From Phycisphaeraceae bacterium (GTDB taxonomy: Bacteria; Planctomycetota; Phycisphaerae; Phycisphaerales; UBA1924), in assembly GCA_019636655.1 (NCBI GenBank), contig JAHBXB010000005.1, positions 62,001-126,000 on the forward strand: a DNA stretch of 64,000 bases, in the 5' to 3' direction. The notes beneath the pieces are model-generated. The model was not told the DNA's origin, made no database searches, and was given only the letters and a program-made list of their open reading frames with translations. This document shows, one piece after another, positions 44,318 to 45,587 of this stretch (position 1 is the stretch's first letter; the number at the start of each line of letters is the position of its first letter). Made by a program: the position numbers and the translations under genes.

Positions 44318-44349
44318 AACAAAACCGCCCGGCTCGTTGCGGGCCGGGC
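44318..44349 (-). terminator. Leader terminator (attenuator) of thrS
   Basis: On the minus strand: GCCCGGC, loop CCGCAACGA, GCCGGGC, then GGTTTTGTTG. Seven-base-pair perfect stem followed by a T-run, 50 nt before the thrS start and inside its presumed leader. Its 5' arm overlaps a six-base segment (44342-44347) that can pair with an upstream segment (44378-44383), giving an alternative antiterminator. Confidence 0.75.
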
Positions 44350-44371
44350 TTGGTCACATCTTCCGGAGAAT

Positions 44372-44393
44372 CGCGGGCCGGCCGCTACCCGCG
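44372..44393 (-). promoter_or_regulatory. thrS leader pause hairpin and antiterminator segment
   Basis: The minus strand reads CGCGGG (44393-44388, the last two sense codons of the leader ORF) and CCCGCG (44377-44372), a perfect 6-bp stem around TAGCGGCCGG. The loop contains GGCCGG (44383-44378), able to pair with CCGGCC (44347-44342) in the arm of the terminator. The segments therefore form the classical 1:2, 2:3 and 3:4 alternatives. Confidence 0.6.
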
Positions 44394-44444
44394 TCCAGAG
44401 TCGGTCGTCGCAGTCGTCCTCGGGGTGGCACGCCGGTTGAACAT
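44385..44444 (-). CDS. thrL-like: Threonine-rich leader peptide of thrS (attenuator peptide)
   Basis: A 19-codon ORF: MFNRRATPRTTATTDSGRG, then TAG. Five of eight residues from 7 to 14 are Thr, using ACC, ACG, ACT, ACG and ACC. It lies upstream of the leader terminator of thrS, and its last two codons form arm 1 of the pause hairpin. The start ATG lies 8 nt after a TACGCT element. It is not in standard gene calls because of its length. Ribosome stalling at the Thr codons would cover arm 1 and let the antiterminator form. The peptide itself probably has no function. Confidence 0.65.
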   Translation of the reverse strand: MFNRRATPRTTATTDSGRG

Positions 44445-44452
44445 ATCGGCCA

Positions 44453-44482
44453 AGCGTAGCGCGGGGGCCCGCTACCGGGCAA
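44453..44482 (-). promoter_or_regulatory. Putative promoter of the thrS leader
   Basis: On the minus strand TTGCCC (44482-44477), an 18-nt spacer, TACGCT (44458-44453). Eight bases separate it from the leader-peptide ATG. The divergent protease gene begins about 55 nt away. Confidence 0.45.
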
Positions 44483-44537: not shown

Positions 44538-45587
44538 ATGAAACGCTCAATAGATCGGCTTCTCAGGCTCCTCTCGGACGAGACGACCAACCAACCCAAT
44601 CCGGCTGACCGGTCACCCAGGCCGGCTCCACCGCCGGCGGATATTGATCTGCTTGATGCCTATTCCCGTGCCGTCATCGGGGTCGTCGAGTCGATCGGCC
44701 CGGCCGTCATCGGCCTGTCGGGTCCTCGCTCAGCCGAAGCCGAACCTGACGGCTCGAGAATGCGGGCGGGTTCCGGTTCCGGGATCCTGATCAGTCCGGA
44801 CGGCTTTGCGCTGACCAACAGCCATGTCGCGGCGGGACGGGCCCGCCTGACCGCCACGACCGCGGACGGGGACCGACTCGATGCCACGCTGATCGGGGAT
44901 GATTCCGCCACGGACCTGGCGCTCGTTCGGCTGCCAGCTTCGGGCCTGCCCTATGCCCGGCTGGGCGATTCCGGCGGGCTCCGAGTCGGCCAGTTGGTGA
45001 TCGCGGTCGGCAATCCGTTCGGCCTTGAGTCGACTGTTTCGACCGGCGTCGTATCCGCAACGGGGCGATCGCTCCGCGGGCCGCAGGGTCGGCTGATCGA
45101 GGGTGTCATCCAGCACTCGGCCCCGCTGAACCCGGGCAACTCGGGCGGCCCTCTTGTCGACTCCCGCGGCTATGCCATGGGTATCAACACCGCAGTCGTC
45201 GCCTCGGGTCAGGGGCTGGGATTCGCCGTGCCAGCGAGTACTGCGAAATGGGTTGTTTCCGAGTTGCTCACCCAGGGACGGGTGCGGAGGGCGTACCTCG
45301 GCATCGCCGCCGGCCCCTGCCGCTTGCCGCGGGCGCTGGTGCGAGACCTGGACCTCCTGAGCGAGTTTGCCGTCGAGGTTGCCGTGCTGCAGCCCGGCAG
45401 CCCGGCCGCGCGGGCGGGTCTTCGCGAGGGCGATGTCATCGCGTCGCTTGCGGGGAGGTTGGTCGATTCGGTTGATGCGCTGCACCGGTCCCTGTCGCGG
45501 CTCGAGATCGGGTCCGCGGTGAGCCTGGCGGTGGTCCGGGAGGGCCGGTTGATGGAGGTTCGCGTGGTGCCGACGGCCGCTCCGTAG
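44538..45587 (+). CDS. HtrA/DegP-like serine protease with PDZ domain, no signal peptide
   Basis: 349 residues. The chymotrypsin-fold domain has the triad in order: His96 in LTNSHVAAGR, Asp126 in ATDLALVRL, Ser202 in NPGNSGGPLV. One PDZ domain follows (about 260-345: VAVLQPGSPAARAGLREGDV). The N-terminus is a polar, Pro-rich 35-residue stretch with no export signal, unlike periplasmic DegP, so a cytoplasmic location is likely. GGGAAGGCTGA precedes the ATG. Divergent from the thrS leader. nrdR follows with its own promoter. Confidence 0.85.
   Translation: MKRSIDRLLRLLSDETTNQPNPADRSPRPAPPPADIDLLDAYSRAVIGVVESIGPAVIGLSGPRSAEAEPDGSRMRAGSGSGILISPDGFALTNSHVAAGRARLTATTADGDRLDATLIGDDSATDLALVRLPASGLPYARLGDSGGLRVGQLVIAVGNPFGLESTVSTGVVSATGRSLRGPQGRLIEGVIQHSAPLNPGNSGGPLVDSRGYAMGINTAVVASGQGLGFAVPASTAKWVVSELLTQGRVRRAYLGIAAGPCRLPRALVRDLDLLSEFAVEVAVLQPGSPAARAGLREGDVIASLAGRLVDSVDALHRSLSRLEIGSAVSLAVVREGRLMEVRVVPTAAP

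Follow-up and report, generated by a model that had tools for sequence, protein, structure and literature searches.

Is the planctomycete gene for threonyl-tRNA synthetase, thrS, governed by a transcription attenuator that senses threonine? The question is raised by a locus in a 64,000-nucleotide stretch of DNA from a Phycisphaeraceae bacterium, referred to here as the window. On its minus strand, a sequence-only reading had described a promoter-like pair, a 19-codon ORF with five Thr codons and a 7-bp terminator with its tail, all upstream of thrS, and had proposed that these parts work by the logic of the trp and thr operons. The ORF, the terminator, the tail and the gene held on inspection, all coordinates being exact (Table 1).

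Table 1. Features of the thrS leader in the window, followed by the loci of a second leader design; numbers are window positions
Feature	Position	Strand	Basis or remark
thrS, threonyl-tRNA synthetase, 689 aa	42199..44268	-	ATG 44268; ORF read
T-rich tail GGTTTTGTT	44318..44326	-	read directly
Terminator hairpin GCCCGGC / 9-nt loop / GCCGGGC, 7 bp	44327..44349	-	read and scans
Predicted antiterminator region just 3' of the stop: GGCCGG (44383-44378) and CCCGCG (44377-44372)	44372..44383	-	pairing test, 56 leaders
Leader ORF MFNRRATPRTTATTDSGRG with stop, 19 codons	44385..44444	-	ATG 44444; read directly
CGCGGG, last two leader codons	44388..44393	-	read directly; folding allows pairing to 44377-44372 or to the terminator region
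Putative sensing codons: Thr at 7, 10, 11, 13, 14	44403..44426	-	read directly
-10-like TACGCT, 8 nt before leader ATG	44453..44458	-	read directly
-35-like hexamer TTGCCC, 18 nt before the -10	44477..44482	-	read directly
Second-design loci	L430-L457 (f15), L309 (f17), upstream of thrS		terminator 5' arm straddles leader start codon

The encoded protein matches the TGS, tRNA_SAD, class II core and anticodon domains, and a profile search of the whole genome returned one match above the thrS cut-off. The leader stop lies 35 nt before the hairpin, which our terminator scan calls as a 5-pair stem (0.3 expected in shuffles). Both hexamers of the proposed promoter are present, but a stricter sigma-70 scan reports no promoter at this leader. 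The position of TACGCT would leave some 0-2 nt of 5' UTR and hence a leaderless mRNA, an inference made without a map of start sites. Rfam gave no match at gathering score in the window, and the two sub-threshold matches in the region are unrelated. When both strands of the window were scanned for the whole arrangement (TAnnnT 4-12 nt before the start, an ORF of 8-35 codons in which one residue takes up at least 4 of 8 codons, and a terminator 18-55 nt past the stop), it occurred once, at the thrS leader. The divergent neighbour of the leader (44538-45587, plus strand) encodes a trypsin-like protease with a PDZ domain, which we take to be DegP/HtrA-like.

A sample of 180 genomes of the order (G000-G179) provided the relatives. 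The thrS gene was located via TIGR00418 (61 genomes) and with the window ThrS as query (161 genomes of the order), and 165 upstream regions were read. The remaining 15 (G007, G008, G013, G027, G073, G096, G107, G119, G123, G151, G159, G162, G164, G166 and G168) were dropped for want of a thrS match, of the N-terminus or upstream DNA, or of a usable position. Within 330 nt of thrS, 55 of the 165 loci have a short ORF with five or more Thr in 8 codons; under the same criterion the residues next in frequency were Arg (10), Pro (9) and Ser (4). The comparison with relatives that the sequence-only reading had proposed, covering the Thr-rich ORF, the terminator and the stems, was positive in all six sampled families (f1 26/64, f2 1/47, f3 1/1, f4 5/6, f5 3/8, f6 19/39), although in f2 at one locus only, and it was also positive in f11 and f15 of other orders. 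Its central claim, a Thr attenuator of thrS, is supported by the Thr-rich ORFs, terminators and matching stems of these relatives.

The 58 leaders described below lie within 400 nt of thrS and comprise these 55, two with four Thr in 8 codons, and that of G029, which has three Thr only and was added by eye. Six further leaders lie 419-471 nt upstream (G002, G010, G012, G033, G099 and G115), five of them with at least five Thr in 8 codons and that of G099 with four. Thr-rich leaders are thus present at no fewer than 64 of the 165 thrS loci, a lower bound, as less than 700 nt of upstream DNA was covered for many loci; the six distal ones were found among 61 loci that had at least 700 nt and no near leader. 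At the other 101 loci no leader was seen in the available upstream DNA, which does not prove its absence there. Examples of the leaders are MARPVLLTTTTTTTPANRPRG, MLVTTTTTTTTTTTTRPPAIG and MFRTTTTTPG, and the longest run, in G080, has 12 consecutive Thr codons. Since the leaders mix the Thr codons (ACC 226, ACG 186, ACT 48, ACA 19), the runs are not a simple repeat.

Could the Thr runs nevertheless have arisen by chance, as ACN repeats in G+C-rich intergenic DNA? In favour of this reading, the window copy has only 5 Thr among its 19 codons, and no leader is present in the sampled relatives closest to it on the ThrS tree. Against it, no Thr-rich ORF (at least 5/8) was found in shuffled or antisense sequence upstream of thrS, and a stricter scan at the 5/8 threshold, covering 1.16 Mb on both strands at 110 thrS loci, returned 17 rows, of which 16 fall at 15 Thr-rich leaders and one is a Ser-rich ORF. 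The shuffles, the antisense sequence, the all-residue comparison and this background scan contradict an origin by chance or repeat for the leader set, and we regard it as all but excluded.

Attenuators at other amino-acid genes of the order were sought and rejected: the strict scan was empty at pheS (30 loci), leuS (30), hom (23) and ilvB (19), and a relaxed scan gave stray ORFs, rich in Arg, Ala, Ser or Val, or Thr-poor, together with a single Leu-rich one described below. The leuS HMM match often started inside the gene, and not every leuS gene start was covered. One such match, in G051, has about 1.46 kb upstream of it a Leu-rich short ORF, MSHGRLPRLLLLLSKRS, with a strong terminator (L374). 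This match begins inside the gene and no -10 lies near the ORF; it may conceivably be a Leu attenuator, as a single case.

The leaders share a constrained anatomy. A terminator follows the leader stop in 56 of the 58, none being detected in G003 and G068, and one identical 200-nt scan before thrS found a hairpin at 54 of the 58 leader loci versus 1 of the 107 remaining loci. In 49 of 56 leaders the hairpin lies 24-36 nt past the stop (range 24-51), and thrS follows the leader stop at 72-252 nt in the 58. A leader together with a terminator before thrS is real and widespread in the order. A TAnnnT box lies 4-12 nt 5' of the start codon in 49 of the 58, compared with 4.6% of all upstream positions, and is missing from that place in nine. 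This placing suggests that the leader mRNAs are leaderless, although this is inferred and no start sites have been mapped.

The distal leaders add a variation in layout. All six precede a gene for a small cysteine-rich protein, itself ahead of thrS, and this gene, lying between leader and thrS, would therefore share the same control. Their terminators were found by the scan in five of six, and that of G033 was read by eye. L067 has a like layout, with its leader 870 nt before thrS and the small protein gene in between; its small protein and that of G002, the only one of the six to be tested, match DUF6487 just over the cut-off. The small cysteine-rich protein gene between leader and thrS was noted at L047, L049, L051, L060, L257, L259 and L067, with DUF6487 in the two tested, L049 and L067.

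These features bear on two rival explanations. In the first, the leader acts at translation, by exposing or hiding the thrS ribosome-binding site or by re-initiation, and the hairpin is incidental. The leader of G003 without a detected terminator speaks for it, as does a study of leader genes in many phyla including Planctomycetes, concerned with spacing and not with amino-acid sensing, in which leader genes near structural genes were proposed to aid re-initiation (PMC4833913). Against it stand the T-tailed hairpins and their near absence from loci without a leader, the distance from leader stop to thrS, which is far for re-initiation, and the small gene that intervenes in the six distal loci; we consider it unlikely. 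In the second, ThrRS autoregulation acts through the hairpins as its operator, and the Thr codons are there by coincidence. ThrRS of E. coli does bind its own mRNA to autoregulate thrS. However, the hairpins end 21-140 nt before thrS and have T-rich tails after them (23 leaders), and the Thr runs belong to a reading frame that has its own start and stop, and draw on all four Thr codons; this rival appears very unlikely.

A short ORF rich in cognate codons and an intrinsic terminator before the gene satisfy two criteria of an attenuator, the translation of the ORF being itself inferred. A third, an antiterminator that competes with the terminator according to ribosome position, is met for the set of leaders and only weakly for the window copy alone. 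In the pairing test on 56 leaders, the antiterminator stretch, from the last codons to about 24 nt past the stop, paired with the 5' terminator arm of its own locus at -12.80 kcal/mol and with the arms of other loci at -11.86 kcal/mol (4 of 20000 permutations). With one leader per genus (35) the count was 51 of 20000, and for window-type leaders in a version of the test in which the best T run was chosen, again one per genus (36), it was 543 of 20000. The permutations preserve neither base composition nor kinship, and part of the advantage of the own arm may stem from either. The window itself ranked 42 of 56 when its antiterminator energy was set against the arms of other loci.

Sequence changes point to the same pairing at individual sites. 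In family f1, a terminator arm 4 reading GCTGG is accompanied by GCTGG near the stop in 3 of 3 cases, as against 1 of 23 with GCCGG arms (Fisher 0.0015); the three come from two genera, g5 and g68, and the covariation concerns one site. In genus g76, by our own reading, G077 carries a C to T change in the 5' arm of its terminator, and both the 3' arm and the antiterminator arm show a matching change. Exact repeats of terminator arm 4 close to the stop were not significant, either in all leaders (1488/20000) or with one per genus (1194/20000).

The dependence on ribosome position was modelled by partition-function folding of the RNA before arm 4 exists, the measure being how far the terminator 5' arm is held upstream (56 leaders). 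With the ribosome at the stop this sequestration was 0.37; it was 0.66 with the ribosome at the last Thr and 0.78 at the middle Thr, exceeding the stop value in 51 of 56 leaders for the middle Thr and in 48 of 56 for the last. Ribosome footprints of 11 and 15 nt left the ordering unchanged, and shuffled spacers gave 0.59 (middle Thr) and 0.49 (stop). Without a ribosome, the modelled sequestration was 0.73, as high as in the stalled state. A protecting hairpin of the trp type is therefore not evident in the model, and leaders that are not translated should read through, in contrast to the trp case. In complete transcripts of 23 leaders, the mean terminator probability was 0.84 without a ribosome; a ribosome at the first Thr lowered it to 0.56, one at the last Thr gave 0.83 and one at the stop raised it to 0.97. 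Given these values, the mechanism would need to be largely kinetic.

For the window copy, the terminator 5' arm was held upstream with probability 0.58 (middle Thr), 0.83 (last Thr) and 0.62 (stop), and a shuffled spacer gave 0.75 and 0.75. The model thus predicts a weak switch for this copy taken by itself, and supports it poorly. The claims that had been made for the pairing fared accordingly. The switch between a ribosome stalled at Thr and one at the stop holds in the model across the set and is weak in the window. The GGCCGG:CCGGCC antiterminator held in part: the pairing exists, but the modelled pre-terminator RNA of the window uses a longer pairing that takes in the last codons of the leader. 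The trp/thr-operon logic is supported, the protecting hairpin being the element that is not evident in the model.

Taken together, the recurrent Thr-rich ORF, the terminator, the narrow spacing, the match of arms within a locus and the modelled switch across the set are shown. The transcription start, translation, stalling, termination and threonine response of the leader are all inferred. The best explanation is a threonine-responsive, ribosome-mediated transcription attenuator of thrS that senses the supply of threonyl-tRNA; we consider it likely, with a probability of roughly 0.84, in the absence of RNA or protein data. Our confidence is slightly lowered because modelled sequestration without a ribosome is as high as in the stalled state. 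In the proposed mechanism, RNA polymerase would start at or next to the leader ATG, as inferred from the -10 box, and a ribosome would load on the bare 5' end and trail the polymerase. With ample Thr-tRNA, the ribosome would reach the stop and cover the last codons and the nucleotides past it, so that the terminator would form and thrS would remain untranscribed. With Thr-tRNA in short supply, it would stall in the Thr run, and the leader tail with the post-stop stretch would pair with the terminator 5' arm, allowing read-through into thrS.

A further possibility would be an additional role in trans for the leader peptide or the terminated RNA, as reported for peTrpL and rnTrpL of S. meliloti (PMC7298713). 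By eye, there is little likeness between the peptides of different families outside the Thr run, and such a role seems very unlikely. The cis-acting attenuator, the preferred reading, has a closer parallel in the same system: the 5' end of S. meliloti trpL RNA coincides with the leader ATG, and codon-specific stalling attenuates transcription (PMC7298713). The proposed thrS leader would resemble it in its inferred leaderless start and in this use of stalling, and differs in that trpL has Trp codons and targets trpE(G).

How does the proposed attenuator relate to other known systems? Classical synthetase attenuators were described for pheST in gamma-proteobacteria and for leuS and trpS in Streptomyces (PMC1262725, whose main text does not contain the word thrS). 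They share cognate codons, an antiterminator and a terminator with the thrS leader but serve other amino acids. The E. coli thr operon attenuator (Rfam RF00506, Thr_leader) likewise has a Thr-codon leader peptide and attenuator hairpins, yet it controls threonine biosynthesis rather than thrS. The E. coli thr leader uses mixed Thr and Ile codons. RF00506 reached its gathering score neither in the window nor in 20 leader loci; its one sub-threshold match, at L215, had 26.2 bits versus a gathering score of 55 (one of ten loci searched), with none in the window. In Firmicutes, a thrS T-box raises thrS when Thr-tRNA is uncharged. A T-box senses the tRNA directly and has no leader ORF. The T-box covariance model likewise produced no match at its gathering score, either in the window or among 20 leader loci.

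The sequence-only reading had also stated that no such leader is described in this group. We found no description of a thrS attenuator in planctomycetes in the open-access literature searched, a partial search made at the level of titles and abstract beginnings, but a precedent for the gene exists. Streptomyces lividans TK24 carries upstream of thrS a leaderless thrL, MKRVRPFLETTPGFVPAR, with two Thr codons; one hairpin and no uridine-rich sequence were reported (PMC8079986). It is like the planctomycete leader, for which a leaderless start is inferred, in the gene it precedes and in being a leaderless ORF with Thr codons, and unlike it in having only two of them and no clear terminator, and in belonging to another phylum. 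According to a survey of premature terminators, leader peptides were known only from Proteobacteria and Actinobacteria before it added Bacillus hisS paralogues (PMC2965389). A 2010 survey by Lopatovskaya and others reportedly covers attenuation of aminoacyl-tRNA genes and may mention thrS. Beyond E. coli autoregulation, T-boxes and one weak actinobacterial leader, no control of thrS is known to us. The principle of attenuation is known, and for thrS in one actinobacterium; what is new is the phylum, the strong codon runs and a second architecture, to which the leaderless start can probably be added, no start-site map being available.

The distribution of the leader was set against a quick ThrS tree of 64 rows, of which 22 have a leader (G209, with 4 Thr, being labelled as lacking one). 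On it, leader presence requires 14 changes, at least 10 of them forced by well supported branches, compared with 18.5 on average for shuffled labels. The leader is absent in the rows nearest the window ThrS (G009, G067, G064 and nine f2 rows). The leader is thus not shared by every relative. In genus g68, G120 (L163) has no Thr ORF and a terminator hairpin identical to that of G175 and G130, possibly a vestige of recent leader loss. Among the other orders of the class (56 loci, reduced to 55 as L315 had no start), at least five Thr in 8 codons occurred at 10 of the 55, four in f11 and six in f15. The f11 leaders resemble the window type, with TAnnnT and a terminator in 5 of 5, a count that includes G209 and also G238, read from a TTG start.

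The f15 leaders follow a different design. The scan found no local terminator at six of them, nor at the leader of G190 (f17, 4 Thr). The f15 leaders have 9-12 codons, as in MNTTTTTTTTC, MFTTTTTTRC and MRQNTTTTTC. In them the segment around the ATG, from about position -20 to +2, pairs with the sequence immediately ahead of a T run; the 3' arm ends some 58-100 nt past the stop in the clear cases. In an extended sample of f15, 35 genomes were searched, 28 read and 23 assigned a leader, giving 24 leaders with G190. They were chosen partly by eye, and G282, G211, G278, G286 and G274 have only 2-3 Thr. In the arm test on 22 of them, with the best T run per locus and without G287 and G285, which have no T run, the own arm paired at -23.95 kcal/mol versus -18.80 for other loci (0/20000, and again 0/20000 with one per genus, 17), but it came first in its row at just 7 of the 22 loci. 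The leader ORF paired with its own spacer at -23.69 and with permuted ones at -20.43 (1/20000, 15 genera). As with the window-type leaders, base composition or kinship may account for some of this advantage of own arms.

An alignment of 17 f15/f17 leaders omitted G284, G217, G286 and G274, whose pairing was unclear (they were kept in the arm test), and G292, a near copy of G291. Its 16-pair helix has 78.3% standard pairs versus 68.1% when shuffled, with changes on both sides at 12 of the 16 pairs and a covariation score of 0.375, as against 0.208 shuffled (0/500) and at most 0.136 when slid. G188, G223 and G190 are visibly out of register in it and count against the helix, and RNAalifold on the 17 rows recovered the helix with 8 pairs and a small energy of -4.84 kcal/mol. 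Rfam returned only tRNAs at gathering score at 16 f15/f17 loci. Because arms, ORF and spacer pair with their own partners, the f15 leader ORF probably forms the 5' strand of a long terminator, as inferred from pairing and covariation. At L447, L449, L451, L452 and L455 (genera g150 and g195), other short leaders, such as MLTNTTTNS followed by a stop, were noted, some with a separate hairpin directly upstream of the ATG and without a clear T-run terminator.

A bolder reading, which could as readily prove wrong as right, is that the class holds two distinct Thr attenuators of thrS. The second, in f15 and one f17 genome, would be a wrap-around one: the 5' end of the mRNA, including the leader ATG, would pair with the segment that immediately precedes the U tract and the Thr codons with the spacer, making the leader ORF the 5' strand of the terminator. 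A ribosome held at the f15 Thr codons would then block termination directly, without a separate antiterminator. In a direct-occlusion model of 18 leaders, 16.5 outer pairs were expected without a ribosome; a ribosome at the first Thr reduced them to 10.3, whereas one at the middle Thr left 15.5 and one at the stop 16.0. Only early stalling therefore opens the stem at equilibrium, which weakens the direct-occlusion account. In the same reading, control of thrS by a Thr leader peptide may be ancestral in the class and may have been rewired or lost many times.

The ThrS searches also yielded observations on the synthetase itself. The ThrS of L088, L095 and L097-L099, titled Poseidoniales, Poseidoniaceae or Euryarchaeota, is 52-54% identical to that of the window, exceeding some planctomycete records in the same list, and a transfer between domains is conceivable. 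Five others (L066, L068, L071, L074 and L078) share 63-72% identity with it and are titled Myxococcales, Cyanobacteria, Singulisphaera, Proteobacteria and Deltaproteobacteria; they are likely mislabelled bins, and L068 also has a Thr leader.

To conclude, the proposed attenuator would extend control by leader peptides, here with codon runs of unusual strength, to a class of Planctomycetota. If the leaders are leaderless, ribosomes must load on bare 5' ends close behind the planctomycete RNA polymerase. Two designs would serve one signal and one gene, and presence and absence alternate among close relatives, a series suited to asking how attenuators arise, rewire and decay.
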